In this document: positions 23,431-64,000 of the stretch, in pieces
How positions within the stretch are numbered: position 1 is the stretch's first letter
How the letters are laid out: each line of letters opens with the position of its first letter
NCBI GenBank assembly: GCA_007751255.1
Contig: CP036296.1
Span: 620,001 to 684,000, forward strand
From: Engelhardtia mirabilis
GTDB lineage: Bacteria; Planctomycetota; UBA1135; GCA-002686595
Length of the DNA: 64,000 nt
Direction of reading: 5' to 3'
Position numbers and translations under genes: made by a program
The notes under the pieces: model-generated
What the model was told of the DNA's origin: nothing
The model's input: the letters and a program-made list of their open reading frames with translations, nothing else
Databases searched by the model: none

Positions 23431-23590
23431 TCGTTCGGCACGAACTGCGGCGGGCTCACCCCATCGATGCCACCGCCTGCCCGGATCCGCGACCGGCGCC
23501 TGCGAGCCCCGTGGAGAATTCCGCCATTCCCCCGTGCACCCCCTCCGGGTCCGTCGCTGGGAGCGCATCACCCCTCACCCGGAGATCAAC

Positions 23591-24929: not shown

Positions 24930-24965
24930 GAGCGGGGCGGTTGGCGCGAGCCAGCCGCCCCGCTC
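24930..24965 (+). terminator. Terminator hairpin between paralogs
   Basis: Fifteen-base arms (gagcggggcggttgg and ccagccgccccgctc) pair with one G-U, with a 6-nt loop. The tail is ttcgttcg. It ends transcription of the first paralog, so the two copies are likely separate units. Confidence 0.65.
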
Positions 24966-25117
24966 TTCGTTCGCGAGGTGCGGGCAGACCCCGACCGCCG
25001 AAGTGCGCGGAAGCCCGCCACGCGCGGGGGAATTGGCCACTCGGATTCCGAGATTCCCGTACAGGTGGTGACGGACCGTCGCTGGCACGCACGACCCCTT
25101 CCAATCGGAGGCTTCCC

Positions 25118-37415: not shown

Positions 37416-39155
37416 TCAGTCGCCCTTGCCGTTGGGGTGGCAGGAGTAGCAGGCCGCGGAGTTGTAGGAATAGCCCGGAACCTCGTCGGGCTTGTGCTTC
37501 TTCTGCGTGTCGACGGCGTTGTGTTCGTGGCAGTCGATGCACGAGAACACCGCGTAGGTGGCCGGGTTCGTGTGGCACTGGGTGCAACTGAAGTTCTTGT
37601 GTGCCCCGGTCTTGATCGGGAAGTCGTGGTTGAAGACCGCGTCGTCCCAGTCCGACGTGTTGTGGCAGGCCTGACAGGTCGTGGGGTAGCCGGCCGCGAT
37701 GTGATTGGGGTCGTTGGCGCCGGTGTAGTCGGAGGCGTGGCACGAGAAGCAGTCCGACGAGAGTCCCGTGAAGGTCCCCGGGCTGTGGCAGGCGGTGCAA
37801 CTCGACAGGTTGTGACCGGCGGTCAGGGGGAAGAACGAGTGGTCGATGTTCGCGTCGCCCCAGTCCGAGGTGTTGTGGCACTCCTCGCAGGAGGTCGAGA
37901 AGCCCGCCGTGACGTGGTTGGGGTCGCTGGCGCCGGTGTAGTCGGAGGCGTGGCACGAGAAACAGTCGGACGACAGGCCCATGAAGGTCCCCGGGCTGTG
38001 GCAGGCCGTGCAACTGGCCAGGTTGTGCCCGGCGGTCAGCGGGAAGAACGAGTGGTCGACGTTGGCGCCCTCCCAGGTCGATGTGTTGTGGCACTCGTCG
38101 CAGGCGGTCGAGAATCCGGCCGTGACGTGGTTGGGGTCCATCGCCCCGGCGTAGTCGGAGGCGTGGCACGAGAAGCAGTCGGTCGACAGGCCGGCGAAGG
38201 TCCCCGACCCGTGGCACGCCGAGCAGTCGCTGATGCTGTGCCCCGCGGTCAGGGGGAAGAAGGCGTGGTTGAACGCAGCTCCCTCCCAGCTCTGGATGTT
38301 GTGGCACTCGTCGCAGGAGGTCGAGAAGCCCGCGGCCACGTGGTCGGGGTCGTCGGTGCCCGTGAAGTCGTCGGCGTGGCAGGAGAAGCAGTTCGTCGAC
38401 AGGCCCGAGAAGACCCCGCCGGTGTGGCAGGCCGAGCAGTCGCTCAAGGCGTGTCCGCCGGTCAGCGGGAAGAAGTTGTGTACGAAAGTCCCGCCGCCCC
38501 ATTGGGTCGGCTGGTGGCACTGCTCGCAGGAGGTCAGGTTGCCCGAGGCCACGTGGTCGAAGCTCTGCGCGCCCAGGGCGTCCTCGAGGTGACAGGACTC
38601 GCAACGGGTGCTGACGCCGGTGAACTGTCCCGCCTCGGCGGCCGGGTGGCAGCTGGCGCAGGCCGTGGCCAGGTGCGCGCCCTCGAGGGGGAAGCGCGTC
38701 GACTGGTGGTCGGCCAGGATGCCGCTCGGGAACCAGTCGAAGGTGTCGTGGCACTCGGTGCAGGTCGCGCCCAAGCGCCCCAGGTGCGGATCCTGGTGGC
38801 AACCGCTGCAGCCCTTGGCCGCGTACCACTGCACCGGGCCGCGGTCGTTGTGGCAGCGCAGGCACTGGGCGCCGTCGTGGGCGCCGTCGAGCTCCACGCC
38901 GGTCTCCGCCAGGTGGTCGAACTGGAAGTCGGCGCGGATCGTGCTCCAACCCTTGCCCACGTGGCACAGGGAGCAATCGGCCGGGAAGGTGTCGTGGGGC
39001 ACCACGGGCCCGCGCTCGTCCCACCACCCCTGGCGCGGTCCGTCGGGCCCGCGCAGTTGCAGCCCACAGGCGACGAGCAACGCGACCAACAGGCCCGCGA
39101 AGGCCTTGGGGTGAGCGATGCGGCGGGTTGAGCTGGGAGTGTTCGAAGGATCCAT
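37416..39155 (-). CDS. Lipoprotein multiheme cytochrome c, 22 CxxCH motifs
   Basis: ATG at 39155; 579 aa. A lipobox-type leader (LLVALLVACGLQ) suggests an outer-membrane or surface lipoprotein. I count 22 CxxCH motifs from CSLCH (near residue 61) to CYSCH (near the end). The middle is built of repeats of ~68 residues, each with CDECHNTS, FFPLTAGHN, CTACHSPGTF and CFSCHASDYT in order, so heme number grew by internal duplication. Extra His in DHSFFPLTAGH sites could be distal heme ligands. It is last in a four-gene operon with the barrel 24 bp upstream, which places it as the likely outer-face or terminal cytochrome of a porin-cytochrome conduit. Confidence 0.85.
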   Translation of the reverse strand: MDPSNTPSSTRRIAHPKAFAGLLVALLVACGLQLRGPDGPRQGWWDERGPVVPHDTFPADCSLCHVGKGWSTIRADFQFDHLAETGVELDGAHDGAQCLRCHNDRGPVQWYAAKGCSGCHQDPHLGRLGATCTECHDTFDWFPSGILADHQSTRFPLEGAHLATACASCHPAAEAGQFTGVSTRCESCHLEDALGAQSFDHVASGNLTSCEQCHQPTQWGGGTFVHNFFPLTGGHALSDCSACHTGGVFSGLSTNCFSCHADDFTGTDDPDHVAAGFSTSCDECHNIQSWEGAAFNHAFFPLTAGHSISDCSACHGSGTFAGLSTDCFSCHASDYAGAMDPNHVTAGFSTACDECHNTSTWEGANVDHSFFPLTAGHNLASCTACHSPGTFMGLSSDCFSCHASDYTGASDPNHVTAGFSTSCEECHNTSDWGDANIDHSFFPLTAGHNLSSCTACHSPGTFTGLSSDCFSCHASDYTGANDPNHIAAGYPTTCQACHNTSDWDDAVFNHDFPIKTGAHKNFSCTQCHTNPATYAVFSCIDCHEHNAVDTQKKHKPDEVPGYSYNSAACYSCHPNGKGD

Positions 39156-39179
39156 GGCGGGCCGTGGGTGCTGCGGATG

Positions 39180-40952
39180 TCAGAAGCGCAGGGAGGCCGT
39201 GAGGCCGACGACCATCGCGTCGGTGTCGGTATCGAACACGCGATCCACGTTGGCGGACAGGCTCCAGTCGTCACCGATGCGGGTGTCGAAGCCCATTCGC
39301 ACGGAGTGCTGGTCGTGGGTCTCGAGGGCCGCCTGCAGGCCCGTGGGCTCGAAGCGCAGGAAGGAATAGCCCGCGCTCAAGTTGCTGCGCTCGAAGACCG
39401 GCCAGTGGGCGTCGAGGCCCACGCCGATCTGGTCGTTGTAGCGCGTCTCGTTGGTGCGCGCCGAGATCGACAGGCCCGTGTGCCAAGCGTCCAGGTTGTT
39501 GCCGTTCGCGCGCAGGGTGTAGCCGCCGCCGGTGTCTTCCGAGTCCTGGAAGCGCTGCACCCCAGCCTCGAGGCGCCAGTGGCTCGTCGCCCGCCACCAG
39601 ACGCGCCCGCCGAAACGATCGACGGGGCCCTGGCCGAGGACCAGTTGCGGGTCGCCGTACAGCTCGTTCTTCTTCAGATCGGCCAGGGAGAAGCGCGTGG
39701 CGAAGACGCCCAGGCCCACGCTCTGGCCCAGGGGGCGGTCCACGTTCAGGTAGTACTCGGTCAGGTCGAAGCCCGCCGGCGTCGAGGCCGTGGACGAGGC
39801 GTAGTAGTCGATCAGGGCGCCGCCGCGGATCATCCAACCCGCGGGGCGCGCGTCGAGCCCGACCACGATCAGGTTGCGGTCCGAGCTGCCCTGGAACCAC
39901 GTCTTCTGCAGGCCGAGGGTCACGCTGCCCAGGCTGCGGTCGCCCAGGGGTTGGTCCACCGACACGGCGACCTGGGCCTCGTCCGCCTCGAACGGGGTGG
40001 CGCTGGTGTTCAGGTCCGGGATCAGACCGATCGACGCGCCCCAGCGCCGATCGCCCCCGTCGCGGTGGCTCAACTCGACGCCGTCCAATCGCCCCAGGCG
40101 CGAGAGGCCGCGCTGGGAGAAGCGCCCGACGGTCAGGGACGTGGGCCGCTCACGGTCGCCGCCGATGCTGTAGGCCAGCTCGTCCACGCGCCCGATCAGG
40201 TCGCTGTCGTCCTCCACGTCGGCGGAGTAGGCGCGCCACAGGGTCTCGGCGTCCAGGGTCAGCTCGCCGCCCTGGCCGAAGGGGTTGGTCGCGGTCAGGT
40301 CGGCCCCGAACACCAGGCGCGAGCTGTCGACGTCGGTGCCGTCGCTGGTCGCGGTCACCGCGCGCAGGCGCAGGCGGCCGGAGACCATGGGCTCGCGCTC
40401 GGCGGGCTTGGAGCCCTCGGGCTGGGCCAGGAGCGGCGCCGCCGGATCGCGCGTGCCCTCGCCTTCGGTGGCCGCCCAAGGCGGGTGGGGGACCGCCTGC
40501 ACGATCGGCTGCAGCGGCGGCGCGTCGCCGTCCGAGTGCGTGCCCGCCCGTGGATCGACGACCTTCGCCTGGGGCTCGGCGCTGAAGCGCTCGCCGGGCA
40601 CGAAGACCTCGCCCAGGGTGTCGCGCGGCGGCGGCTCGCCCGGGGCGAGCACGCGCGCCCGGCAGCTCGAGGCGGAGACCATCTCGATCTCGGCCTCCAC
40701 CGGCGCCGCGCCAGCGGGCGAGAGGCGCACGGTGTCACCGACGCGCAGGCCGTCGTTGCGACCGGCGTTGAGGTAGACGCTCTCGGCGATGGAGTCGGTC
40801 ACGCGCACCTCGACGCGGCGCTCCTCCATGCGCTCGACCGCGGGCGCTGTGCTGCCCGCCTCCGCCCCGCCCTCTGCGGCAACGGCAGGCTCGAGCCCGA
40901 AGAGGCCCAGCGCCGCGGCGACCAGCAGCCCTTGTCCCGTCATGGCCCTCAT
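39180..40952 (-). CDS. Outer-membrane beta-barrel (porin-cytochrome porin)
   Basis: ATG at 40952 overlaps the previous stop (ATGA); 590 aa. Signal peptide (MRAMTGQGLLVAAALGLFG...AVAAE). An N-terminal SH3-like region (NAGRNDGLRVGDTVRL, as in FlgT-C) and a Pro-rich linker come first. The following ~380 residues show alternating hydrophobic/polar beta strands ending in a C-terminal Phe (GLTASLRF), the classic outer-membrane barrel signature. Position between two multiheme cytochromes matches MtrB/OmbB-type porins that insulate a heme wire. It is the likely channel; whether it really binds the cytochromes is inferred. Confidence 0.8.
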   Translation of the reverse strand: MRAMTGQGLLVAAALGLFGLEPAVAAEGGAEAGSTAPAVERMEERRVEVRVTDSIAESVYLNAGRNDGLRVGDTVRLSPAGAAPVEAEIEMVSASSCRARVLAPGEPPPRDTLGEVFVPGERFSAEPQAKVVDPRAGTHSDGDAPPLQPIVQAVPHPPWAATEGEGTRDPAAPLLAQPEGSKPAEREPMVSGRLRLRAVTATSDGTDVDSSRLVFGADLTATNPFGQGGELTLDAETLWRAYSADVEDDSDLIGRVDELAYSIGGDRERPTSLTVGRFSQRGLSRLGRLDGVELSHRDGGDRRWGASIGLIPDLNTSATPFEADEAQVAVSVDQPLGDRSLGSVTLGLQKTWFQGSSDRNLIVVGLDARPAGWMIRGGALIDYYASSTASTPAGFDLTEYYLNVDRPLGQSVGLGVFATRFSLADLKKNELYGDPQLVLGQGPVDRFGGRVWWRATSHWRLEAGVQRFQDSEDTGGGYTLRANGNNLDAWHTGLSISARTNETRYNDQIGVGLDAHWPVFERSNLSAGYSFLRFEPTGLQAALETHDQHSVRMGFDTRIGDDWSLSANVDRVFDTDTDAMVVGLTASLRF

Positions 40953-43300
40953 CGATCACCCACCGTCCCGTGGCAATCGGCACAACTGTGTGCGATTGGC
41001 TTGTAGCGAACGGCGCTGCCGCCGCCCTCGAGGGGCCAGGCGTCGTGACAACTGGCGCAGGCCAGGTCGCGGTGGTTGGCGTCGAGGGCGAAGCGCGCGT
41101 CCTCGGCGTGGTCGAAGGTCAAGCGCGCGTCGCCATCGTGGCAGCGCAGGCAGCTGTCGCCGCGAACGTCGCCGAACTGCGCCACGTGGGGGTCGGCGTG
41201 GCAGTCGTAGCAGCGGCTGCCGCGCACCAGACCCAGGTTGCGTGGGCCGTGGGCGCTGACGGCGGGTCGCTCGTGGCAGCCCGCGCACTCGAGGCCCGCG
41301 TGCCCGCCCTCGAGCCCGATCCCGGTCCAGCGACCGTGGTCGAAGTCAATCGTCGCGGGGGCGAAGGCCTCCGAGCCGTGGCAGGCGGAGCAGTCGGCGA
41401 CGGCGCCACCGACCGGCAGCAGCGCGCCGCCGTGGGCGTCGGCGTGGCAGTCGTCGCAGCGCGTCATCGAGGCGCCGAAGAGGTCCGAGGCGCGGCCGAA
41501 GCGGCGCAGGTCGGCGTCCGCCGTCTTGGCGGGGCGGTGGCACGTCTCGCACTGGGCCTGCGCGTGGGCGCCGACGAGCGCGAAGCCGGTGCGCCCGTGA
41601 TCGAAGGCGGCGCGGTCCACCTCGCTGAAGGTCGTGGCGCCGTGGCACTCGGCGCAGTCGGTCGGCGCGGCCTGGGCGTTCGAGGGGCTGGCCAGGGCCA
41701 CCGCGGCCTGGGCCAGGAGCCCGTCGTGCACGTCCGTGTGGCAGGCCGCGCAGTCGTCCTGCAACCCCGCAAAGCGCAGCGGGCCGCTGTCCAGGCGCTC
41801 GGTGTGGCAGGCCGCGCAACCCACCGCGCCGTGGGCGCCGTCCAGGGCGAAGCCGGTCAGCCCGTGCTGGTCGAGTCCGAAGTGCGCCGGTCGGAAGGCG
41901 GTGTCCGAGTGGCATTCGGAGCAGCTCGCGCTCGCGAAGGGACCCCGGTCGAACTCGCCCCCGTGGGCGTCGTCGTGGCAGTCCGCGCAGCTCGTGCCCA
42001 CGGCGTCGAAGCGCAGCGCCTGCTGGGGCGCGCTCGGCTCGTGGCACGCGGCGCACGCGAGGTCGGTGTGGGCGCCGTGCAGGGGGAAGTCGGTGCCTCG
42101 GTGCTCGGCCAGGCCGAAGCTGGAGGGCGCGAACTCCGAGGTGGCGTGGCAGGTGGCGCAGGCCAGGGGCCCGCGGTCCTCGAACTCGCCCCCGTGGGGG
42201 TCGGTGTGGCAGGCGGCGCAGTCCTCGCGCTCGCGGCCGGGGAAGCGCTGGCTGAAGTCGTGGGCGACGTCCGCGGCGGCGCCGTGGCAGTCGGCACAGC
42301 CCAGCTCGGTGTGGGCGCCGTCCAGCTCGAAGCCGGCCCGGGCGTGGAGCTCGGGCGTGACCCGCGCGGCCACGGGCCCGGGCGGCGCGGGCGCGAGGCG
42401 CTCCTGGGTCAGCTCACCCAAGGAGAAGCCCCCGTCGCGCGGATCGTGGCAGCCCCTGCACGAGGTCGCCGGCTCGGCCGAGAAGAAGAAGGCCGCGGCG
42501 GCGAGCAGGACGTCGGTGTGGGGCTGGTCGTGGCAGGCGTCGCAGCGCTCGGCGCGGCCCGGACCCTCGCGGTCGAAGGAACGCTCGATGCTCCAGTCGC
42601 TGCCCGGCTCGTGACAGGTGGCGCACTCGAGGCCGGCGTGGTCGCCGCCGTCGTCGAAGCTCGCGTGGGCGAAGCTCGGGGGCGGACCGAAGCTCTGGGT
42701 CTGCACGTGGCAGTCGGCGCAGGAGTTGCCCAGCTCGCCCCCGTGCACGTCCTCGTGGCAGCTCGCGCAGGAGGCGTCGAGGCCACCGAAGCGCCGGGTG
42801 CCGTGGGCGAGGACCAGCACTTCGGAGGCGGCGTGGCACTCGGAGCAGGCGATCTCGGTGTGCTTGCCGGCGAGGTCGAGGCCGACCAGCGCGTGGTCGA
42901 AGGCCATCACGTCCGCGACGCCAGCGGCGGCGAAGGCGGTGTCCGAGACCAGGCGGAACTCCGCGCCGTGGTGCTCGCTGTGGCAGGTACCGCAGGCCTG
43001 GGCGCTGGCGGGGTCGAGGGTCCCGTGCAGGCCGCGGCGCAGGTCGAGGTCGCTCTCGATCGCCTCGTGGCAGGTGAGACACGCCCCCGCGAGGCTTTCG
43101 CCGAAGCCGCCGTGGCAGCGTTTGCACGAGCCGGCGCCGTCGAGCTCGTCGAGGCTCGCGTGCACCGCGCTCAGGGGACCCGGCGAGGTCTGCTCGAGGT
43201 CGCGCGAGAAGAGCACGACCACGAAGCCGGCCGCGGCCAGGGCCAGCCAGAGCTCCGGGCGCTTCCACAGGGGCGCCCGTTTGCGTTTCGAGACCGCCAT
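40949..43300 (-). CDS. Membrane-anchored multiheme cytochrome c, 26 CxxCH motifs
   Basis: ATG at 43300; 783 aa. A single N-terminal membrane segment (LWLALAAAGFVVVLFS) without a clear cleavage site anchors it. I count 26 CxxCH motifs from CKRCH (~59) to CADCH (near the end), with repeated modules such as DDCAACHTDPHGGEF, CADCHDDAHGGEF and LDGAHTELGCADC. Many have a following His suited for bis-His ligation. It starts 3 bp after the flavin/ferredoxin gene and overlaps the barrel gene. It probably bridges the inner-membrane dehydrogenase to the barrel. Confidence 0.85.
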   Translation of the reverse strand: MAVSKRKRAPLWKRPELWLALAAAGFVVVLFSRDLEQTSPGPLSAVHASLDELDGAGSCKRCHGGFGESLAGACLTCHEAIESDLDLRRGLHGTLDPASAQACGTCHSEHHGAEFRLVSDTAFAAAGVADVMAFDHALVGLDLAGKHTEIACSECHAASEVLVLAHGTRRFGGLDASCASCHEDVHGGELGNSCADCHVQTQSFGPPPSFAHASFDDGGDHAGLECATCHEPGSDWSIERSFDREGPGRAERCDACHDQPHTDVLLAAAAFFFSAEPATSCRGCHDPRDGGFSLGELTQERLAPAPPGPVAARVTPELHARAGFELDGAHTELGCADCHGAAADVAHDFSQRFPGREREDCAACHTDPHGGEFEDRGPLACATCHATSEFAPSSFGLAEHRGTDFPLHGAHTDLACAACHEPSAPQQALRFDAVGTSCADCHDDAHGGEFDRGPFASASCSECHSDTAFRPAHFGLDQHGLTGFALDGAHGAVGCAACHTERLDSGPLRFAGLQDDCAACHTDVHDGLLAQAAVALASPSNAQAAPTDCAECHGATTFSEVDRAAFDHGRTGFALVGAHAQAQCETCHRPAKTADADLRRFGRASDLFGASMTRCDDCHADAHGGALLPVGGAVADCSACHGSEAFAPATIDFDHGRWTGIGLEGGHAGLECAGCHERPAVSAHGPRNLGLVRGSRCYDCHADPHVAQFGDVRGDSCLRCHDGDARLTFDHAEDARFALDANHRDLACASCHDAWPLEGGGSAVRYKPIAHSCADCHGTVGDR

Positions 43301-43303
43301 CGA

Positions 43304-45523
43304 TCAGCCGCCGAACCGGGTGAAACGCAGGGCCACGACGATGTGCGCGATGACAGCGAGGACGCAGAACAGGGCCGCCCAGCGGTGCAGGAAGCGCCAG
43401 GACACCATCAGCCCGCGCAGGTCCTCGAAGCTGGCGGCGGAGGCGGCCGCGCGCCGCGCGCGGGCGGCGAGCTCGGTCACGCGCCGAATCTGCTCCGCGT
43501 GCAGACCCGCGTCGCGGGCCTTCAGCGTGAGGTCCTGCTCGAGCTGGCGCACTGCCCGGCGGCTGCGCAGCACCGCGGCCAGGCGCGTGAGGAAGTTGCG
43601 CCCCCCGCGGCTCTCGCGGATCGAGCGCTCGACCGCCTCCAGGACCGAGTCCCCGAAGCCGCGGTGGGTGCGGTCGAGCTCGCCGGAGAGCTGCGCCAAC
43701 TCGCCGCGCACCTCGTCGAGGAGCAACTCGCGACCGTTCGCCGCCCGCGGCACGAACGAATAGAAGTAGCGACCGATCGCGCCCGTGGCCGCCAGGGCCA
43801 AGAGCGCCAGGAACGAATGCCCCCCGAGGGTGTCGCGCGGAGCCAGGGCCGCGTGCATCAGCACGAGCAGCGGCACCGAGAGCCCCGTGGCCACGTGCAC
43901 CGTCATCCAAGCGCGCAGGGAGCCCCAGCGCACCGGCACCAGGGTGCTGCGGCGCAGGAGGTAGCCGAGGTTCGCCGCCATGGCCGCGAAGGCCGCGATG
44001 CCCAGGGTCAGTCCGACGGCACCGGCCGGCCGCAGCGTGGCGTGCCACGGGTGGTGGGGGCGCTCCGCCAGGGGCAGGTCGTAGTAATCGCGCAGGCCAA
44101 AGGTGGCGCCCGCGAAGACCAGGGCCAGCACGAGCACCGCGCCCAGGGAGCGGATCAAACCAGTCGAGCTGCCCTCGTCCGCCGTCGCCACCGGCCGGTC
44201 CGCCGGGTCGAAGGAGATGCCCGAGGCCTTGAGCGGCTCGATCGGTGCCTCACCGCCGGCGAAGACGAAGACCTCGTCCACGTCGAGCATCAGCTTCTCG
44301 CCGTCGCAGGCGCCCAGGCGCACGAGGTCGACCGTGTCCGTGCCGATGGCGGTGACCTGGGTCTCGAGCAGCAGCTCGACGCTGCCGTCCAGCCGCGCTT
44401 GGTCGAGGCGCTCGCGGTTGCGACTGCGCAGGCGCGAGAACTCCGCGCGCCGGTAGGACAGGCGCACGACGTTGCCCGGCTGGTCGGCCAGGCCGAGGGC
44501 CGCCTCCACCGCGCTGTCGCCGCCGCCGACCACCAGGATGCGGCGATCGGTGTAGCTCTCCGCGTCCATCAGCGAGTAGGCCACGTGGGTCGCCTCCTCG
44601 CCCGGCACCCCCAGACGACGCGGCGACCCGCGCCGGCCCAGGGCCAGGCTCACGAAGCGCGCCACCACCGGCTCGCCGTCGGTCTGGACCTCGAGCAGCC
44701 CGTCGGCGCGCTGCACCACGCGCTTGAACTTGACCGGCGTGCGGATCGGCAGTTCGAGGCCGCCGATGATGTCGGTCCACAGCTCCATCAGCTCCTCCTT
44801 GGCGTAGGAGCTGCGACCGAGGCGCCCGTGCAGGGGCAGGTCGACCGGCTGGGTCATGACCAACTTGCGGCGCGGGTAGCTGGCGACGGTGCCGCCCACC
44901 GAACCCTGCTCGAGCGTCACGAAGTCGATCCCGTGCAGCTTGGCGGCCAGGGAGCACGACAGCCCCGCCGGCCCCGCACCCACCACGCACAGCTCCAACG
45001 CGCCCTCGGGAAGGTCGCGCGGGTCGTCCTTCAGGCGCCGCGCGATCTCCTCCGCCACCGCGTTGCCGTGGGTGACGGCGGTGCGGATCAGGGCGTAGCC
45101 AGTCACTTCCCCGGCCAGGAACAGGCCGGGCACGGTGGTCGATTCCAGGTTGTCGGACAGCACGGGGATGTCCTCGCGCTGCTCGATGTCCCCCAGGGCG
45201 ATCGAGATGGCCCCCGTCGGGCACTCCTCCGCGCAGCGCCCGTGCCCGACGCAGCGCGCCCCGTGGACGACCAGGGCCTGGCCGTGGATCAGGCCGAGCA
45301 CCCCGTCCTCCGGACAGGCCGCCACGCAGGTCCCGCAGCCCAGGCAACGGTCCAGATCCACGTGGGGATACTGCAACCGCGCCCGATGGGACCCGGATTG
45401 CCGCGCCTCCTCCCGCTCATCCAGAGCCGCGCCCAGGCCATGCAGGCTCTGCCGCCGCTGGATCAGCGCGACGAGCAACCCGGCACAGGCCAGGGCGGGC
45501 AGTAGGAAGGTCCACCAGGTCAT
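43304..45523 (-). CDS. Ferredoxin-flavin-cytochrome b-like membrane oxidoreductase
   Basis: ATG at 45523; 739 aa; first gene of the operon. An N-terminal TM (TWWTFLLPALACAGLLVAL), then a bacterial-type ferredoxin with CLGCGTCVAACP. The second cluster reads CVGHGRCAEECP: the second Cys of the usual CxxCxxCxxxCP is His. Then a thioredoxin-reductase-like FAD/NAD(P) domain (VVGAGPAGLSCSLAA ~200; VVGGGDSAVEAALGL) without the redox CxxC. The last ~270 residues are several helices with His (VLMHAALAP, FLHRWAALF, VIAHIVVAL), suited for b hemes. It could take electrons from NAD(P)H or a quinol and pass them to the 26-heme protein, or the reverse. Direction unknown. Confidence 0.85.
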   Translation of the reverse strand: MTWWTFLLPALACAGLLVALIQRRQSLHGLGAALDEREEARQSGSHRARLQYPHVDLDRCLGCGTCVAACPEDGVLGLIHGQALVVHGARCVGHGRCAEECPTGAISIALGDIEQREDIPVLSDNLESTTVPGLFLAGEVTGYALIRTAVTHGNAVAEEIARRLKDDPRDLPEGALELCVVGAGPAGLSCSLAAKLHGIDFVTLEQGSVGGTVASYPRRKLVMTQPVDLPLHGRLGRSSYAKEELMELWTDIIGGLELPIRTPVKFKRVVQRADGLLEVQTDGEPVVARFVSLALGRRGSPRRLGVPGEEATHVAYSLMDAESYTDRRILVVGGGDSAVEAALGLADQPGNVVRLSYRRAEFSRLRSRNRERLDQARLDGSVELLLETQVTAIGTDTVDLVRLGACDGEKLMLDVDEVFVFAGGEAPIEPLKASGISFDPADRPVATADEGSSTGLIRSLGAVLVLALVFAGATFGLRDYYDLPLAERPHHPWHATLRPAGAVGLTLGIAAFAAMAANLGYLLRRSTLVPVRWGSLRAWMTVHVATGLSVPLLVLMHAALAPRDTLGGHSFLALLALAATGAIGRYFYSFVPRAANGRELLLDEVRGELAQLSGELDRTHRGFGDSVLEAVERSIRESRGGRNFLTRLAAVLRSRRAVRQLEQDLTLKARDAGLHAEQIRRVTELAARARRAAASAASFEDLRGLMVSWRFLHRWAALFCVLAVIAHIVVALRFTRFGG

Positions 45524-48264: not shown

Positions 48265-51200
48265 CTAGTGCGGCACCTCCTTGCCCGATCGATCCGCAAT
48301 GTGTGCGACACCGCGACGAAAGTGCTCCGCCCACCGGTCGAGGACTCGATTGTCAACCAAGGGCCAAGGCTCATCTAGGCGGGCCAAGTCGCGCTCGGCG
48401 TTCGAGCGATCCAAAAGTGGTAGGTCCCGATCGGGCACCAGATCCCTGTCGTCGCCGGCTTCGGTGGCGGCGCGCAGTCGGGTGAGCAGGGGGAAGAGGG
48501 GGTGGCTACGGTTGCCGTTGGCGGCGGTGATGGCGGCGGCGCGCCATGTCCGCTGGTCCACTAGGCGTATTGTCAGACCGCGCTCGATGGCTCGGCGGTA
48601 GAGGGCGTCGAAAGGGGTCGGGGTCGGGTGCAGCAGGTGGTAGGTGGCGCCATCGGGACGGCGGCACCGGACCAGGTGGGCGATGGCTCGGGCCAGGACG
48701 TCGACGGGGGTCACGTCGACGGGGAGGTCGATGGCCGGAGCCAGGCCGAGGGCGAAGGAGCCGCGGATGGCGCGGGCGGCGAGGTCGTCGGGGCTCCAGA
48801 TGCCGGTGGTGGCGCTGCCGGCGACGCGGCCGGGGCGGTGGATCGCGACAGGGAGGCCGCGACGGCCGGCCTCGCGCACCAGGGCCTCGGCGACCCACTT
48901 GGACTGCTCGTAGCCCTCGGTGTGGCCGATGAGCTGCTCGAGGTCGCCGTCTTCGAACACCGTCGCGTCGGGGCCGAGGTTCGGGGGGGCGGCGACGCCG
49001 ATGGTCGAGATGAAGTGCACGGCGGCGCCGGTGCGGCAGGCCAGGCGCAGGACCTCGAGGGTCCCGCCGACGTTGATCGGTGCCAGGGCGTCGTAGCCGC
49101 GCACGAAGTCCACCGCTGCGCCGCAGTGGACGATGGCGTCGATGGAGTCCAGGTCGGTGGAGTCGGGAAGGCGATCGGGACTGACTTGGCCGGTGTTGTC
49201 GGCGGGGCCTGTGGAACGCGAGGTCTCGGGCGACCTGGCGGCGTCGGCAGCACCGCCGCGACCGGCGCGCTCGATCCCGAGCCCCCGCGCGGCGAGGTCG
49301 CCGGCGAGGGGGTGCAGGGCGCGGTCGACCTCGGCGCTGCGCAGGCGATAGCGCTCGAGGTTGGCCTCGAGGCGACGGCGAGCGTCCGACGGACTCGAAG
49401 CCCGCACCAGGCAGTCGACGCGCTCGACCCCCGCATCGACGAGGGCCCGCAGCAGGTGGGCGCCGAGGAAGCCCGTCGCGCCGGTCAGGAGGACCCGGCG
49501 CGGGGGATGGGGCCGCAGCCCTCCCTCGGCAGGCCGCACCTCCTCGGGCAGCCGGGCCTCGGCGCGCAACCGCGCGGGGCCGACTGGTTCGCTCGCGGCG
49601 CTCTCGCCGCCGTCGACCAGGCGCGCCGCGCTCTCGATCGTCGGTGTCGCCATGAAGTCCGGCAGGGGCAGCTCCACGCCCAGCTCGTCGCGCAGCCGCA
49701 CGGCCAGGTCGATGGCGGACAGGGAGCTGCCGCCCAGGTCGAAGAAGTCGGCGGTCACCCCGGGGGCCTCGACGCCGAGGACTTGGGCGAACAGCGCGGC
49801 GATGCGGCGCTCCAGGTCATTGCGCGGGGCGACCTGGGCCTCGCTCGGCACCTGGCCTTCGCGCCGGGCGAGGGCCACCAGATCGAGCTTGCCGCTGACC
49901 AGGCGCGGCAGGCGTTCGACGAGGTCCCAGCGGGCGGGGATCCACGCCTCGGGCAGGCGTCTCGCGACTTCGGCGCGCAGCCGGTCGACCTCCAGGCCCG
50001 CCCCGGCCAGGTGGGCCACCAGTTGGATCGCGCTGCCCGCCCGCCGCGCGGTCACCGCCGCCTCGCGCACGCCGGGGAGCTCGCCGAGGGCCGCCTCGAT
50101 CGCCCCCGGCTCCACCCGGCGGCCGCGGACCTTCACCTCGCGATCCGCGCGCCCCACGAATTCGAGCGAGCCGTCGGCGCGCCAGCGGGCCAGGTCGCCG
50201 GTGCGGTAGCGCCGCGCTCCGCCGTCGCCGAACGGGTCGACCTCGAAGCGCTGGGCAGTCAACTCATCGCTGCCGAGATAACCGAGGCCGACGCCGCGTC
50301 CGCCCACGACCAACTCACCGACCACGCCGCGTGGAACCAACGCGCCCCTCGCGTCGATGATCGCCAGGTGCGCGCCGGGGAAGGGGCGCCCGAGGGGCGG
50401 CGGGCCGCTCTCGCTCGCTTCGCAGCGATGGAACGCCGCGTCGATGCAGCACTCCGCGGGCCCGTAGAGGTTGAACAGTTCGATCGGCCGGCCGAGCTCC
50501 GCCACGCGCCGCGGCAGCTCCGCCAGCATGGCCTCGCCGCCGCACAGGATCCGCCGCAGTCCGTCCAACTGTGCGATGCGCCCGCGATCGGCGACCAGCG
50601 CCCCGATCCAAGCCGGCACGCCGACCAGGAGCGTCACGCCGACCTGCGCCGCGCGCCGCAGGTAGGCCGCGGGGTCCGACCGCTCGGCCTCGTCCGCCAG
50701 GTGCAGCTCCGCTCCGGCGGCCAGGGGCGTGAACCACTCGAGCAGCGCCGCATCGAACACGGCTGGGATCCGGTGCAGAACCCGATCCCCCGCGCCGATC
50801 CCGTGGAGCTGCGCCGCGGCCCGCGCGTGGTGCGCGAGGGCGCGGTGGGGGATCACGGCCAACTTCGGCTCGCCGGTGGTGCCCGAGGTCGCAATCACGT
50901 AGGCCGGCGCTTCGGGGGAGCCGCGGTCGAGGTCGGCTTCGGGCGCGGGGCCCGCTGCGAGCGCGTCGACGCCCAACGAATCCAGGCGCAGGCGCACGCC
51001 CGCGCGCTCGGCCAGGCGGGCGCGGTGGGGCTCCGGATCGGCCGGGTCGAGCACCAACCAGGCGGCTCCGCACAGCCAGACGCCGAGGAAGGCCGCGATG
51101 CGCGCCGGTGTCGCCCCGCACTCGAGGGTCACGATCGCGCCCGGCCCGACCCCTCGCGCCGCGAGGCTTGCCGCGCAGCGCCGGGCGCGCTGCTCCAGCT

Positions 51201-54200
51201 CGGCCAGGCTCCAGGCGCCCCCGGACCAGACCACCGCGCGGGGCCGCGCCTGGCCGCCGAAGACCAAGCGATGGGCGCAGGTCTCCTCGCCCGCGGGCGC
51301 GGCGGCGCCGCGGCCCAGCTCGACCAGCTCGCGCCGCTGCGATTCGTCGAGCAACTTCAACTCGCCGATCCCCCGCTCCGGCGCCGCCAAGCCCTGCGCC
51401 AAGAGCCGCGCGAAGTGCGACCACAGGCGCTCGACCGTCGCGCGGTCGAAGACGTCGGTGGCGAACTCGATCCGCGCGGCGAGGTCCTCGCCCCGCTCGT
51501 CGATGGCGATCGCCAGGTCGAGCTTCGCGCGGGTCCCCGGGAACTCGAGCTCCGTCGCCCGCACCGATCCGAAGTCGAGCTCCACCGCCGCGGTGCCGAG
51601 GGTGTCGAAGGAGATCTGGAACAGCGGAGCGCGGGACGGATCGCGCGCCGGCGCCAGCTCCTCGACGAGCTGCTCGAACGGTAGCTCGGCGCGGGCCAGG
51701 CCGCGGCGCAGGGCGGCGGTCGCTCCGTCGACGACTCCCGCGAGCCCCTGGTCACCCCCGGCCGACAGTCGCAGGGGCACCGCGTTGACGAACAACCCCA
51801 ACAGGTGCTCGGCGCCCGGCGCGTTGCGATTGGCCACCGCGGTGCCGACCACGAAGTCCCCCTCCCCGATCATGCGGTGCAGCAGCGCCGCGAAGCTACC
51901 CAACAGCACCGCGAAGGGCGTGGTCCGTCGCGCGCGCGCAAAGGCTCGCACGGCCGACGACAACTGGGCCTCGAAGCGGAACTCCAGGCTCTCGCCCCGG
52001 TGATCGCGGCGCGCCGGACGCGGACGATCGGTGGGCAGGGCCACCGTCTCCGGAGCCCCGTCCAACTCCTCGTGCGCGGCACGCAACAGGGCCCCGCGCC
52101 GTTCCTCGGTCAGCGCCCGTCGCTGGCGCGCCGCAAGCTCGCCATAGGTCGTCTGCAACGTGGGCAGACTCGAGCTCTCGCCGCCGATCGCAGCGCGGTA
52201 GTGCTCGCCCAGCTCCCGGGCCAGGATCCCGAGCGACGCCCCGTCGGTGATCGCATGGTGCTGATTCAGCACGAGCCAGTGCTGATCCGCTCCCAACGTC
52301 CACAGCTGCGCGCGCACCAGGGGGCCAGCGGCGAGATCGAACCGGTGCCGCGCCTCTGCCTCTGCGAGCGCGTGCGCCGCGGAACGGGGGTCGTACGATC
52401 CGCGCAGGTCCTCGCGGGCGACGACCAACTCGACATCACCAGCGACCACTTGAACCGGGCGCCCATCGCGCTCGACCAGGCTCGTGCGCCAGACCGAGTG
52501 GCGCGCTTGAACCGCGCGCAGCGCGGCCTGCAGGGCGACGGAGTCCACCGGCCCCTCCAGCCGCAGGCCGCCGAGCACGTTGTAGTGGGTGGAACCAGGC
52601 TCGAGCCGGTCGAGGATCCACAGGCGCTCCTGGGCGAAGGAGAGGGGCGGATCGCCGGCGAGGGGCTCATTCGGTGTCTCGGTGGTCCCGGCGGCCCCGC
52701 ACTCGATCGTCCGCGCCAGCCACGACACGGTCGGCCGCTCGAAGAACGCCAAGAGGTCGACGTCGACGCCGGTCTCGTCGCGCAGGCGCGCGGCGAGCTG
52801 CGCGGCGAGCAGGGACTGACCGCCGAGGCCGAAGAAGTCGTCGTCGCGGCCGACGGCGTCGACCTCGAGCAGCTCGCCGACGAGGGTGGCGATGCGGCGC
52901 TCCAGGTCTCCGCGGGGCGGCTCGCTCGGCGCAGTCGCGGTCACCTCGATCTCCGGCAGGGCCCGCCTATCGAGCTTCTCACTCGGCGCCAGGGGCATGG
53001 CATTCACCGTGCCGATCGCCGCGGGGCACATGTGTCGCGGCAGGCGCGCCGCGAGGTAGGCCTGCAGCTCCAGCGGCAAGGTCTCCGCACCATCGGCCTG
53101 CGCCGGAATCACCCAGGCCAGCAGCCGCAGCAGCCCGCCCGGCCCCGGCCGCGCGTCGACCGCGGCCTCGCGAACTCCCGGATGCTGGGCCAGCACCGCC
53201 TCGATCTCGCCCAGCTCGATGCGCTGCCCGGCGATCTTCACCTGCTGGTCCACGCGCCCGAGGAACTCCAGCTCGCCGCCCTCGAGCCGCCGCACCAGGT
53301 CGCCGGTGCGGTACATGCGTCCGCTCCCCAGGGGATCGTCCAGGAAGCGCTCGGCCGTTCGCAGCGGGTCGCCGAGGTAGCCCCGCGCGAGCCCGGCGCC
53401 GCCGACGAGCAGCTCGCCCGACATCCCGATCGGCAGCGGCTGCATCGAACCGTCGACGACATGGGCCTCGACGTTGTGGAGTGGCCTGCCGATCGGCACC
53501 GACCCGCGCCCGCGCCGATCCCCCGGCGCGCAGGTGAACCAGGTCGCGTCGATGCAGGCCTCGGAGGGACCGTAGAGGTTGTGGAGGGCGGCGCCGGGTG
53601 GCGCGACCTCGAAGAAGCGCTCGGCCAGGTCGTGCGAGAGTCGCTCGCCGGCGCAGATCAGGTGGCGCAGGGCGGTGCAGCGCGAGAGGCCGTCGCCCTC
53701 GAGCCAGGAGCGCAGCATCGACGGCACCGCCTGCAGCACCGTGATCCCGCAGTCAGCCACGAGCTGTAGCAGGCGCCGCGGATCGCGGTGCACGCCCGGC
53801 GGCGCGACCACCAGCTCGGCGCCGCTCGTGAGCGGATGCACGATCTCCCACAGGGACGCGTCGAACGTGAACGGCGTCCGCAGCAGGAAGCGATCGTCCG
53901 TACCGAAGGCGAAGTTGACCGCCCCCGAGGCCAGGTGGTTGGCCAGGGCGCGGTGGGGCACGGCCACGCCCTTGGGTCGGCCGGTGGAGCCCGAGGTGTA
54001 GATCACGTAGGCGATCGAGGTCGGCTCGAGCTCGACCTCCAAGGGCCCATCAGGACGCGCCGCGAGCTCCGCGAGGGTGGCGTCGTCGTCGAGGACCACC
54101 CCCACGGCAGACGTTGCCGGCAGGGCCGCGCGCAGGTCGGCGTGGGTCAAGACCAGCCGCGCGTCGGCGTCCGCCAGCAAGAGGGCCGTGCGTTGGACCG

Positions 54201-55936
54201 GATCCTCGGGGTCCAGGGGCAGGTAGGCGCCGCCCGCCTTCCAGATCGCGAGCACGGCGACGATCGCGTCGATCGAGCGCGGCAGGAAGGTCGCCACGGG
54301 CACGTCGGCTTCGACACCCGCCGCGACCAGGTGCCCGGCGAGGCGATCGGACTGTGCGTCGAGCTCCGCGTAGGTCACCACGCGAGACCCCTCCCGCAGG
54401 GCCGTCGCGGTCGGGGCTCGGCGCGCACGCTCGCCGAACCGGCGGTGGACGGTCGCTCGCAAGTCGACGTCGAGTCGGGGGCCGCGCCCGGCTTCGAGCA
54501 GGACGCGGCGATCGGAGGCGGAGACGAGCGGCAGTTCCTCGAGGGGGCGCCTCGGCTCGCGAACCGCAGCGGCGAGCAGCTCGAGCCACGCGCGACCGAT
54601 GCGCTCGATGGTCGCCCCCTCGAACAACGCCGTCCTGAAGTCGAAGCGTCCGGCCAAGCCACCCTCGCCCAGGTCCTCGACCCCGAGCGACAGGTCGAAC
54701 AGGGCCAGACCGGTCTCGACGGGCACCTCGGTCGCGCGCAGCCCGTGCCACGGCGGAGTGGGCCGCGGCACACCCATGTCGAAGAAGACGTCGAACAGCG
54801 GCGTGCGCCCTGGGTCGCGCGGGGGCGACAGCTCGGCGACGAGCTGCTCGAAGGGCAGCTCTGCCACGGCCACGGCGTCGCGGAAGACGGCCTTGGTGCG
54901 CGCCAGATGGGCGCTGAAGCCCTCTCGCGCCACATGCCGTGATCGCAAGGGCAGGGTGTTCACGAAGGCGCCGACCACGCCCTCGATCTCGCGTCGATCG
55001 CGGCCCGCCCAGGGCGTGCCGACGATCAGGTCCTCCTGGCGGCAGATGCGATGCAGCAACACTTGGAAGCTCGAAAGGAGTACGACGAAGAGCGTCGTTC
55101 CCTCGGCGCGGGCGAGGCCACGCAGGCCATCGGCGACGCCGGGCGTGACCGACACCCGCCGATGGTCGCCCTCGCGCGCGACCAGGGCCGGTCGCGGGCG
55201 ATCGAGCGGCAACTCCGCGCCCGTCGTCGCATCGGCCAGGGCGTGCCGCCAGTCCTGGGCGAGGGCGCGCAGGCGCAGGAGCTCGGACTCCCGCCGTTGC
55301 CAGGCGGCGTAGTCCACGTAGGTCACCGGCAGGGGCGGCGGGCCCTCGCCGCCGACCAGGGCCCGCGCGTAGAGCTGGGCCAACTCGCGCACGATGATCC
55401 GCACCGACCAACCGTCGGTGGCGATGTGGTGCATGGCCGCGGCCACCAGGTGCTCGGTCGGCGACAGCTCCAGGTGCAGGGCGCGCAGGAGCGGCGGGCG
55501 TTCGAGGTCGAAGGGTTCGAGGGCGAACCCACGCAGCCGCGCAGCGGTCCAGGCTCCCTCCGCACCGTGTGCCGTCTCGCTGACGAGCGCCACGCTGGCA
55601 TCCGGCGCGACCACCTGACGCGGCACGCCCCCCTCGGCTGGGAAGCCCGTGCGCAGGGCCGCGTGGCGCGCGAGCAGCCCGTCGAAGGCCGCGCGCAGGG
55701 CGCCGCGGTCCAGCTCGCCCTCGAGGCGGACCGCGCCCGCGACGTTGTACTCGGCCGATTCGGGCTCCAGTCGCTGCAGGAACCAGAAGCGCTCCTGGGC
55801 GAAGGAGAGGGGCGCGGGACCCGCCGGTGCCTTGGGGATCGTCGCCGCCGCCTGGGCCTCTCGCTCCGCCGCGGCGCGGCGGCGGCGCAAGAGCTCCAGC
55901 CGCGCGGCGTCGAGCTGCGGACGTTCTGCGCCGTCC

Positions 55937-55944
<8 letters not shown>
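48265..55944 (-). CDS. Dimodular NRPS with C-terminal thioester reductase (C-A-T-C-A-T-R)
   Basis: ATG at 55944 inside the PKS end, with a GGAGG site ~9 bp upstream; 2559 aa. C1 ~43 (PLSFAQERFWFLQRLEP), active site MHHIATDG ~170. A1 ~496-1000 (YTSGSTGRPKG ~651). T1 Ser in GLGGQSLLAA ~1042. C2 ~1100, QHHAITDG ~1231. A2 ~1545-2010 (ATSGTTGEPK ~1684). T2 Ser in LGGSSLSA ~2073. R domain from ~2150: TGATGFLGAH (NADPH site), YEQSKWVAE (Tyr-x3-Lys). Product release as aldehyde or alcohol is expected. By eye the specificity lines read D-A-W-Q-I-A-L-I-D-K (A1; nearest to Gln codes I recall) and D-A-L-V-L-G-L-I-D-K (A2; unassigned). Both need computation. The same C-A-T-C-A-T-R type occurs in mycobacterial isonitrile clusters (Nrp). 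Confidence 0.9.
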
Positions 55945-62752
<6,808 letters not shown>

Positions 62753-62762
62753 GTTCCGCTAC

Positions 62763-63344
62763 CTAGCTATGGGAGACGTCCGGTGCGGCCGCGGCCCGGC
62801 GCTCCCGAGAGGCCGTGCCCGCGGCGCGGTCGACGATCGCCAGCGACACGTCCCCGTGGGAGTGGCCGCCCGCATCGTCGCGGAAGGAGCAGCGCGTGTG
62901 CACGAGCAGGAAGCGGCTGCGCTGCACCGCGTCGACGATCTCGACCGTGCCCTCGAAGTCGCCCGTGGCCATGGGGCGGTGGAACTTGCTCGAGAAGTCG
63001 TGGATCAACACGTCGGGCAGTTGCCGCGCGAGGTACTCGTCCAGGGTCCACGACTCGAAGGCCGGCAGCAGCCCGCCGACGACCACCTGGGCCATCAGGG
63101 CGTAGACCAGTTGGTTGTAGCAGAGGTTGAACTCCACCGAGTTGAAGTGGCCGGTGTCCTGGATGTAGCAGGACTCGCCGATGGCGAGGCGCCCGTAGAT
63201 CACCGCCTGGGGATCGCCAGCGCGGGCGTGGCCGGGCAGTTCGACCACCGCCGACTTCAGATAGCGACAGTTGTCCCTGTAGGGCGTGAGCACCCTGGCC
63301 AGGAGCTCGTCGGTGACCCCGATCGATCGCGGCCCGGCGCTCAC
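62763..63344 (-). CDS. FcoT-family thioesterase (ScoD/Rv0098-like)
   Basis: GTG at 63344 overlaps the TGA of the TauD gene by 4 bp (GTGA); the in-frame region to 63743 is antisense to nothing but overlaps the TauD gene and is ignored. 193 aa. Residues 12-30 (ELLARVLTPYRDNCRYL) and the core IGESCYIQDTGHFNSVEFN followed by NQLVYALMAQVVVG match the FcoT family as I remember Rv0098 (hot-dog fold). In the actinobacterial isonitrile lipopeptide pathway the ScoD-type member catalyses addition of glycine to an enoyl-ACP and release of the beta-(carboxymethylamino) acid. It precedes the PKS directly (10 bp). Family: confident; reaction: inferred from family plus neighbours. Confidence 0.85.
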   Translation of the reverse strand: MSAGPRSIGVTDELLARVLTPYRDNCRYLKSAVVELPGHARAGDPQAVIYGRLAIGESCYIQDTGHFNSVEFNLCYNQLVYALMAQVVVGGLLPAFESWTLDEYLARQLPDVLIHDFSSKFHRPMATGDFEGTVEIVDAVQRSRFLLVHTRCSFRDDAGGHSHGDVSLAIVDRAAGTASRERRAAAAPDVSHS

Positions 63345-64000
63345 ACGAGCCTCCCGCGCGGCTCGTCGGCGTAGAAGGGCCTGCCGTCGTAGACGCCGAT
63401 GCGGTAGCTGACGCTGGCCTCGCCGCTCGCGCCCCCGCCGGCGCGGTGGATCACCTGGCGGTTGTCCCACAGGAGCAGGTCGCCCTTGGTCCACAGGTGG
63501 GTGTGCACCAGGTCGGCGCGTTCCACGTGCTCGAGGATCGCGTCCAGGCGCTGGCGCCCGGCCTCGATCGACAGGCCCTCGAAGCCCACCGTGAAGCCGC
63601 GGCTGACGTAGAGGCACCTGCGGCCGTTTACCGGATGGGTGATGACCGCCGGATGGCTGACCGTGGGCGTCTCCGCGCCGAATTCCTCCAGGATCTGCGT
63701 TATCGACTTGTCGACGTCGCTGGGCTGGATCTTGTAGCGCCACTTGGCCTCGTGGATCGCCCGCGCGCCGAGCACGAACTCGCGCAGGTCCGGCGGCAGC
63801 TCCTCCAGGGCGCGCTGCATGTCGACGTAGGACGTGCCGCGACTGCCCGAGGGGATCTCGATCGGCCGCACCATGGTCATCGGCAGCGGCTCGGGGAAGA
63901 ACTGGTAGTCGGTGTGCCAGTAGGCCCCGGTGTTGGCCACGCCGACCTTGCGGCCGTCCATGGGCACGTTGGAGGAGACGAAGATCTCCGGGTGCCGCGG
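63341..64000 (-). CDS. TauD-family Fe(II)/2-oxoglutarate oxygenase, ScoE/Rv0097-like (5' truncated by window)
   Basis: The frame is open to the window edge (PRHPEIFVSSN before the first in-window GTG at 63967), so the start lies beyond 64000. At least 219 residues are here. The facial-triad His and Asp are in YWHTDYQFF, and the distal His in RQVIHRAGGG; an Arg in SYRIGVYD would hold 2-oxoglutarate. The segment AKWRYKIQPSD lies between them. ScoE/Rv0097-type oxidases convert the beta-(carboxymethylamino) acid to an isonitrile with loss of CO2. Coupling to an FcoT-family gene by a 4-bp overlap is the diagnostic pairing of these clusters. Ordinary TauD dioxygenases are the alternative. Confidence 0.85.
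   Translation of the reverse strand, partial: PRHPEIFVSSNVPMDGRKVGVANTGAYWHTDYQFFPEPLPMTMVRPIEIPSGSRGTSYVDMQRALEELPPDLREFVLGARAIHEAKWRYKIQPSDVDKSITQILEEFGAETPTVSHPAVITHPVNGRRCLYVSRGFTVGFEGLSIEAGRQRLDAILEHVERADLVHTHLWTKGDLLLWDNRQVIHRAGGGASGEASVSYRIGVYDGRPFYADEPRGRLV

Follow-up and report, generated by a model that had tools for sequence, protein, structure and literature searches.

What might a planctomycete build with an oxygenase of the isonitrile-forming ScoE type, when the gene for it heads a row that runs on through a thioesterase and a polyketide synthase (PKS) to a nonribosomal peptide synthetase (NRPS)? The question is posed by a stretch of 64,000 nucleotides of the Engelhardtia mirabilis genome (6.95 Mb in two contigs), positions 620001-684000 of contig CP036296.1 (C1:620001-684000), which we call the window and whose own positions are used below unless C1 or another locus is given. 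The original prediction, made from this stretch alone, had seen in it a TauD-family oxygenase overlapping an FcoT-family thioesterase by 4 bp, followed by a reducing PKS and an NRPS of C-A-T-C-A-T-R organization, all co-directional, and had taken them for an isonitrile polyketide-peptide cluster. Open reading frames (ORFs) and domain matches bear out this row, which is transcribed from the minus strand in the order oxygenase, thioesterase, PKS, NRPS, and the interpretation proves right in outline; its main correction concerns the active site of the oxygenase, and the main additions are an acyl carrier protein (ACP) fused to the PKS, a divergently transcribed ligase and a spread of such loci over three phyla. 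On balance, the locus and its divergent ligase probably form a cluster for an isonitrile-bearing polyketide-peptide, made by the whole scheme set out below, and we consider it likely that an isonitrile is formed here in whatever order the steps may run.

Identity of the oxygenase and its partner thioesterase

The 3' part of the oxygenase gene lies at 63341..64000 (minus strand) and is cut by the window edge; the longest ORF ends at C1:684360, and a likely ATG places the start at about C1:684297. Pfam assigns the protein to the broad TauD family alone (PF02668, E 5e-48), and its placement with ScoE comes from elsewhere. Ten distinct PDB sequences match it at E 1.4e-68 to 3.4e-53, namely ScoE, chains named as 3-[(carboxymethyl)amino]fatty acid oxygenase/decarboxylase and close relatives that bear different names; phenoxypropionate and taurine dioxygenases come next at 5e-27 and weaker. 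PDB 8kht, whose database title is ‘Oxidoreductase’, we take to be the mycobacterial Rv0097. The NCBIfam ScoE model NF049937 gives 284.8 bits and the taurine dioxygenase model NF007104 gives 109.3, while a Burkholderia TauD used as control (L045) scores 139.5 with the former and 236.5 with the latter. In a tree of 35 rows, 28 ScoE-type rows stand apart from seven TauD rows with support 100/100, the actinobacterial rows unite with Halotia at 100/99, and the window oxygenase falls among seven planctomycete rows at an open fork (80/87). Open too are the forks that link the rows of planctomycetes, those of cyanobacteria and myxobacteria, and those of actinobacterial type, and long branches are flagged, so that the His299 form of the enzyme, to which we return below, could have arisen from within; a single clade of non-actinobacterial oxygenases was considered and dropped on account of these open forks, and ‘group’ is used here for a set of rows that is no proven clade. 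Taken with the residues described in the next section, the PDB matches, the tree and the NCBIfam scores with their controls lead us to reject a taurine-type or generic TauD identity and, as the original prediction had it, make the enzyme ScoE-type.

The thioesterase gene (62763..63344, minus strand) shares the four letters GTGA between its own start and the oxygenase stop. Its product scores 189.3 bits against PF10862 (cut-off 27; E 4e-56), also scores, below the cut-off, with the NCBIfam ScoD model NF049938, and is 48.7% identical to PDB 5wsx and 37.5% to Rv0098 (2pfc) over the printed aligned stretches. The entries 5wsx/5wsy, titled ‘Uncharacterized protein’ in the database, presumably represent SAV606, a glycine-adding thioesterase. 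Pfam, PDB and NCBIfam thus agree with the earlier assignment, and by these matches the protein is an FcoT/ScoD-type enzyme. According to the parts of one study available to us, such enzymes take enoyl thioester substrates and release free acids, and those of the CmiS1/SAV606 type feed both beta-amino acid and isonitrile pathways (PMC11284099), a duality that will matter when the product is considered.

The active site of the non-actinobacterial oxygenases

Which of the residues that make ScoE work has the window oxygenase kept? For the Streptomyces coeruleorubidus enzyme, residue roles are taken from those parts of one study that we had (PMC7949033): Y96, K193 and R310 contact the substrate, Y101 belongs to a water network, R157 is the mobile alpha-ketoglutarate arginine, R195 takes part in a hydrogen-bond network, and the R195Q and H299Q variants gave no product. 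By alignment, the window oxygenase has the iron triad H132, D134 and H295 and also retains Y96, Y101, R157, K193, D198, E209 and R310, and it differs from ScoE by the changes Y97 to F, R195 to Q, R201 to K, R298 to G and H299 to G. The likeness to ScoE implied by the original prediction therefore holds for the iron triad, Y96, Y101, R157, K193 and R310 and breaks down at R195 and H299.

The same departure recurs in 22 aligned non-actinobacterial rows from Planctomycetota, Cyanobacteriota and one myxobacterium, each with FcoT as a neighbour (21 distinct, L041 being equal to L023; Halotia L044, with R195 and Y299, is excluded). All 22 carry Y96, Y101, H132, D134, R157, K193, D198, H295 and R310; in all 22, R195 is replaced by Q or T and position 299 is other than His. 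Among the actinobacterial-type rows R195 is present in six of six and H299 in five of six, the sixth being Halotia with its Tyr. Four further loci, L066-L069, were judged by eye outside these 22 rows: the myxobacterial L066-L068 match the non-actinobacterial pattern, and L069 has R195 and lacks H299. Separation from TauD is equally regular, since Y96, R157 and K193 occur in 28/28 ScoE-type rows and 0/7 TauD rows, and the TauD-type arginine (R266), which falls at ScoE position 306, in 7/7 TauD rows and 0/28 ScoE-type rows, the window oxygenase having S there.

We place the window oxygenase in a non-actinobacterial group of ScoE type, which retains the substrate clamp (Y96, K193, R310) together with R157 and dispenses with H299 and R195. 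Since the R195/H299 change is found in three phyla and in many operons that look intact, decay of these enzymes seems unlikely, and it would be simpler to suppose that they hold the cosubstrate in a different manner. The alternative to such a different hold is a changed reaction, that is, the route to a beta-amino acid weighed below.

The assembly line and its recurrence

Ten base pairs after the thioesterase gene begins that of the PKS (55937..62752, minus strand), whose Pfam matches and motif patterns give ACP-KS-AT-DH-ER-KR-ACP, with KS, AT, DH, ER and KR domains and two PP-binding stretches, the first of which is an N-terminal ACP (ACP1, about 62438..62692, minus strand, LGFDSL at residue 59). 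The NRPS gene (48265..55944, minus strand) overlaps that of the PKS by 8 bp and, from Pfam matches, motif patterns and A-domain codes, comprises two Condensation, two AMP-binding and two PP-binding stretches and NAD_binding_4, in the order C-A-T-C-A-T-R; its terminal thioester reductase domain (about 48322..49497, minus strand; PF07993, LTGATGFLG and YxxxK motifs) scores 258.5 bits with TIGR01746 (cut-off 213.35). All catalytic sites tried were matched by motif patterns, except T1 and A10 of the first A domain (A1), which were seen by eye. The original prediction had suggested looking past position 64000 for an acyl ligase and an ACP. The ligase, an AMP-binding protein by Pfam, does lie just beyond the end, on the plus strand at about C1:684436-686043 (L003:2437-4044), starting about 138 bp from the oxygenase start and in the opposite direction (both starts are predicted), and shares 50% identity with the ligase of a Streptomyces cluster and 48% with the Halotia ligase; the ACP lies inside the window, fused to the PKS N terminus, and had gone unlisted. 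ACP1 was tried as a relative of the free ACP of the Streptomyces cluster and rejected: BLAST aligns that protein with the second ACP of the PKS (ACP2) at 33% over 81 residues (E 7e-6) and with ACP1 over eight residues (E 0.7). As sequence lends it no support, ACP1 is proposed as the starter carrier from its position alone.

What the NRPS might join can be gauged from A-domain codes, which were taken from an alignment anchored on GrsA numbering and whose final K was added, not read. A1 of the window gives DAWQIALID, a Gln/Glu-like code, and A2 gives DALVLGLID. First-type A domains of planctomycete loci read DAWQIALID (window, G124, L022), DAWQVGLID and DAWQVGVID (G020) and DAWQIGHID (L024), the nearest printed code being DAWQFGLIDK for Gln (PMC2866473). 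For the last A domains (DALVLGLID, DALLFGLVN, DALLVGLID), we recognized no known code that would specify A2. With no diamino acid at A1, a single isonitrile would be expected in the planctomycete product. Cyanobacterial loci that share the residue pattern of the window oxygenase look like diisonitrile makers, judging from Lys- or Orn-type codes in four of six A domains examined: DVGEIGSID in Scytonematopsis A1, DVGEVGSID in Brasilonema A2 and Westiellopsis A1, and DTEDIGTVV in Nostoc A1, which we take to be Lys-type, as is DTEDVGTVV of the Streptomyces control; codes of other types stand in Brasilonema A1 and Scytonematopsis A2. DVGEIGSID is itself an ornithine code printed in the part of a source consulted (PMC3992020). 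Lys/Orn-type A domains beside the altered oxygenase are the best contextual support that the pattern without R195 and H299 still makes isonitriles.

How often does this grouping recur? A scan of genome contigs with the oxygenase yielded 21 loci (eight planctomycete, ten cyanobacterial, one from Hyalangium and two alphaproteobacterial). The two alphaproteobacterial loci carry an ordinary TauD of 32-34% identity, and in 19/19 of the others an FcoT match follows next after the oxygenase (truncated in L027, where the contig stops, and split in two in L029). FcoT-family matches exceed the cut-off in five of 61 relatives including the window genome (5/37 of its family and 0/24 of the rest of the order), in 3/392 genomes drawn from its phylum, its own included, in 1/292 of the phylum of Brasilonema (Brasilonema itself) and in 5/193 of that of Hyalangium (Hyalangium included); tblastn finds FcoT in three of 72,556 plasmid records (H1, H2 and H7, which belong to the 122 with an oxygenase match of E 1e-20 or better). 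At 14 of the 15 loci found by FcoT, a set that excludes the Brasilonema and Hyalangium search centres, both picked by oxygenase, as well as G656 (below cut-off, internal stops), the oxygenase adjoins it. Since the 6.95-Mb genome holds a single TauD-family match and a single FcoT match (beside two PPTase-family matches), and the order is repeated in other genomes, chance is ruled out as the source of the grouping. Pairwise identities of ScoE and FcoT correlate as well (r 0.82, 25 loci, 0/5000 permutations), although shared ancestry alone could give this.

Within the planctomycetes, an ACP-KS comes directly after FcoT in nine of ten distinct oxygenase loci, and the divergent ligase is found in all nine that reach far enough (L033, whose contig begins at the oxygenase, is excluded). 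An NRPS follows the PKS in five (window, G014, G020, G124, L024) and, in G027, a further PKS module and then NRPS matches; in G030 and L019 the contig ends inside the PKS, L033 has no NRPS match in its last 2.3 kb, and G076:C39 shows no PKS match in 20 kb. All three NRPSs that are complete to their end (window, G020, G124) finish in a reductase. The order is the same in G124 (DHS20C15), a member of another family with a PKS of 2333 residues and an NRPS of 2615, and G020, which with G014 and G030 belongs to the family of the window genome, has the same architecture plus an extra module. The PKS after FcoT in L033 (1566-6890) shows KS, DH, ER, KR and ACP matches and no AT match, and might thus need a free-standing acyltransferase. 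G076 has two split sets, one with ligase, FcoT and ACP-PKS (C139; L054 7975-20000) and one with ligase, oxygenase and FcoT (C39; L055 1819-5175); the two may work together, or the C139 set may make a beta-amino acid.

Proposed product, rival readings and wider setting

Read throughout from homology and gene order, the scheme that we favour would begin with the ligase loading an alpha,beta-unsaturated acid onto ACP1. The FcoT/ScoD enzyme would then add glycine to the beta carbon and free the acid, and the ScoE-type oxygenase would oxidise and decarboxylate this N-carboxymethyl-3-amino acid to a 3-isocyano acid, which the ligase would put back on the same ACP. One malonyl extension of this 3-isocyano starter with full reduction might follow on the PKS, whereupon the NRPS would join a Gln/Glu-like residue and then a second one, and the reductase domain would release an aldehyde or alcohol. 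A broader proposal, to which we give somewhat less than even weight, is that isonitrile-forming oxygenases of a second kind are common to Planctomycetota, Cyanobacteriota and Myxococcota, binding the cosubstrate without His299 and mostly lacking Arg195 in the proton network. In planctomycetes such an enzyme would prime a PKS, whose extension of the starter would put distance between isonitrile and carboxylate, and the aldehyde or alcohol set free by the NRPS would be a peptide bearing a single isonitrile where two might be expected.

Several observations weigh against this scheme. R195 and H299, each reported essential in ScoE, are missing from the oxygenase, and equivalence with ScoE and ScoD, as the original prediction had proposed, stands at the level of family membership and fails at the NCBIfam equivalog cut-offs: the oxygenase (284.8 bits) stays below the 400 of NF049937, which Streptomyces L042 (515.7) and Halotia L044 (437.2) exceed and Brasilonema L025 (268.6), Nostoc L028 (265.7), Hyalangium L034 (294.9) and the planctomycete L021 (253.5) likewise miss, and the thioesterase reaches 163.1 of the 250 set for NF049938 (controls: L042 292.4, above; L044 218.5 and L034 163.4, under). 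The Streptomyces free ACP is nearer to ACP2 than to ACP1, the ligase fits general acyl ligase models and no pathway-specific one, A1 is not Lys/Orn-type, the one exception among the 15 FcoT loci, G076:C139, has ligase, FcoT and ACP-PKS without an oxygenase, and no copper or TonB gene was found among the planctomycete flanking ORFs scanned.

Could the same enzymes act in another order? The PKS might build an unsaturated chain, which FcoT would remove with glycine and the oxygenase turn into a free 3-isocyano acid, to be loaded for the NRPS unextended, so that the isonitrile stays beta. That FcoT/ScoD-type enzymes take enoyl thioesters and release free acids suits this order, the KR and DH of the window PKS, motifs intact, would give an enoyl thioester, and the cremimycin PKS is described, in the same partly available source, as supplying the enoyl substrate of CmiS1 (PMC11284099). 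We nevertheless think this order unlikely: it leaves an intact-looking ER idle, a loading-type ACP precedes the KS, and the 8-bp overlap of the PKS and NRPS genes would fit a hand-over from the former to the latter. The main rival to an isonitrile, and slightly less likely again in our judgement, is a beta-amino acid starter as in cremimycin, in which FcoT would add glycine, the oxygenase would remove a two-carbon piece by a single Fe/alpha-ketoglutarate hydroxylation and collapse to glyoxylate, and the PKS would be primed without any isonitrile. The absence of R195 and H299 speaks for it, as do the greater identity of FcoT to 5wsx than to Rv0098, the service of CmiS1/SAV606-type enzymes in both pathways and the PKS that comes next after FcoT. 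Yet every substrate-clamp residue of ScoE is retained, cyanobacterial loci whose NRPSs are Lys/Orn-type show the same pattern of residues, and the oxygenase would have to act alone, as no CmiS2-like (DAO-type) gene was found by Pfam in 11 flanking ORFs, the part of the genome to which that scan was confined. An ordinary TauD-type dioxygenase, hydroxylating the finished or bound product beside a proof-reading FcoT thioesterase, could be argued from the broad Pfam assignment and the missed ScoE cut-off, but is very improbable indeed, given the PDB matches, residues, tree and controlled NCBIfam scores, the absence of the TauD-type alpha-ketoglutarate arginine, and the pairing with FcoT both by the 4-bp overlap and in 14/15 FcoT loci.

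How does the favoured isonitrile cluster compare with known systems? The sco cluster of S. coeruleorubidus, the SF2768 cluster of S. thioluteus and mycobacterial Rv0097-Rv0101 (nrp) consist of oxygenase, FcoT, acyl ligase, ACP and NRPS, all present in the window locus too, and reductive release is a feature of actinobacterial isonitrile lipopeptide clusters. For the tuberculosis NRPS, the part of the report seen gives two modules and seven domains (PMC6211224), as many domains as in C-A-T-C-A-T-R. Unlike the actinobacterial clusters, the window locus has a reducing PKS between ACP and NRPS, an ACP fused to that PKS, a divergent ligase, a Gln/Glu-like rather than Lys/Orn-type A1 and an oxygenase without R195 and H299; the Lys/Orn diamino-acid A domain that two isonitrile acyl groups would call for is not recognized in its NRPS, where A2 is unassigned. 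Streptomyces clusters L042 (sp. NBC_01201) and L043 (S. clavifer) run oxygenase-FcoT-ligase-ACP-NRPS with the same 4-bp overlap of oxygenase and FcoT, but have a free ACP and no PKS, and L042 has one Lys-type A domain and an oxygenase with R195 and H299. These two and Halotia L044 place their ScoE/FcoT/NRPS clusters on large plasmids, two in Streptomyces and one in a cyanobacterium. In each of the cyanobacterial/myxobacterial loci L025-L032, L034-L036 and L066-L071 FcoT adjoins the oxygenase as in the window, and the window residue pattern is seen in the 11 rows L025-L032 and L034-L036 and, by eye, in L066-L068; many cyanobacterial loci differ in having a separate ACP and an NRPS, whereas L070 and L071 resemble the window in their reducing PKS and ligase. 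In these two myxobacterial loci (L070 7179-17279, L071 7273-17372), one strand bears the oxygenase, FcoT, a fully reducing PKS, an ACP that lies outside the ORF of that PKS, and the ligase, with no NRPS match in 20 kb, and the products are possibly isocyano fatty acids. The cremimycin pathway, as far as our partial source describes it, is like the window in its glycine-adding FcoT-family CmiS1 and its PKS (PMC11284099), and unlike it in using the flavin adenine dinucleotide-dependent CmiS2 instead of an Fe/alpha-ketoglutarate oxygenase and a macrolactam PKS instead of a PKS-NRPS.

As for function, diisonitriles act in mycobacterial copper acquisition according to part of one report (PMC9600254), and L042 and L043 have genes for a metal P-type ATPase, a PCu(A)C chaperone and an iron-type ABC transporter nearby, as L044 has a TonB-dependent receptor. 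A copper role for the planctomycete product is possible only, because no copper or TonB gene stands among the planctomycete flanking ORFs scanned; a search for copper and siderophore genes in part of the flanking ORFs, 11 of the window genome and nine of G124, G020 and G014, found none. A planctomycete peptide aldehyde could equally be an inhibitor. About 4 kb from its ligase, G124 encodes an outer membrane efflux protein of the TolC type.

Other features of the surrounding DNA are recorded here for their own sake. Just beyond the NRPS end, four co-directional genes (37416-45523, minus strand) form an electron-transfer set: two encode multihaem cytochromes with MtrC/MtrF-like matches, the gene between these encodes a protein of 590 residues without Pfam match, and the remaining one a pyridine-nucleotide oxidoreductase that carries ferredoxin domains. 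Next to the ligase of G020 there is a weak match to cytochrome c7. A plus-strand ORF of 783 residues (12537-14888) combines a Rieske [2Fe-2S] domain with a full thiamine-pyrophosphate enzyme, to our knowledge an unusual fusion. Two adjacent plus-strand ORFs (23534-24847 and 24941-26374), the second without Pfam match, have near-identical ends, VKPTEHLIYVNF and VKPTKHLIYVNF, and past the ligase a minus-strand ORF of 1098 residues (L003 6502-9798) joins N-terminal sigma-70 regions 2 and 4 to carboxypeptidase regulatory-like repeats.

Have clusters of this kind been overlooked? Among the titles and abstracts searched, a range that takes in little of the subscription literature and cannot establish absence from print, we met no report of a planctomycete or cyanobacterial ScoE cluster. 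A mining study of peptide metallophores counted one positive among 1034 Planctomycetota genomes, and its main text, searched by word, nowhere mentions isonitriles (PMC12971057), so clusters like that of the window may be passed over. In the papers covered, the ScoE isonitrile route is described from actinobacteria; here, and in other planctomycetes, it would be coupled to polyketide extension. That R195 and H299 vary naturally among many operons of intact appearance bears, moreover, on the mechanistic claim that it is His299 which creates the inducible site for alpha-ketoglutarate in ScoE.

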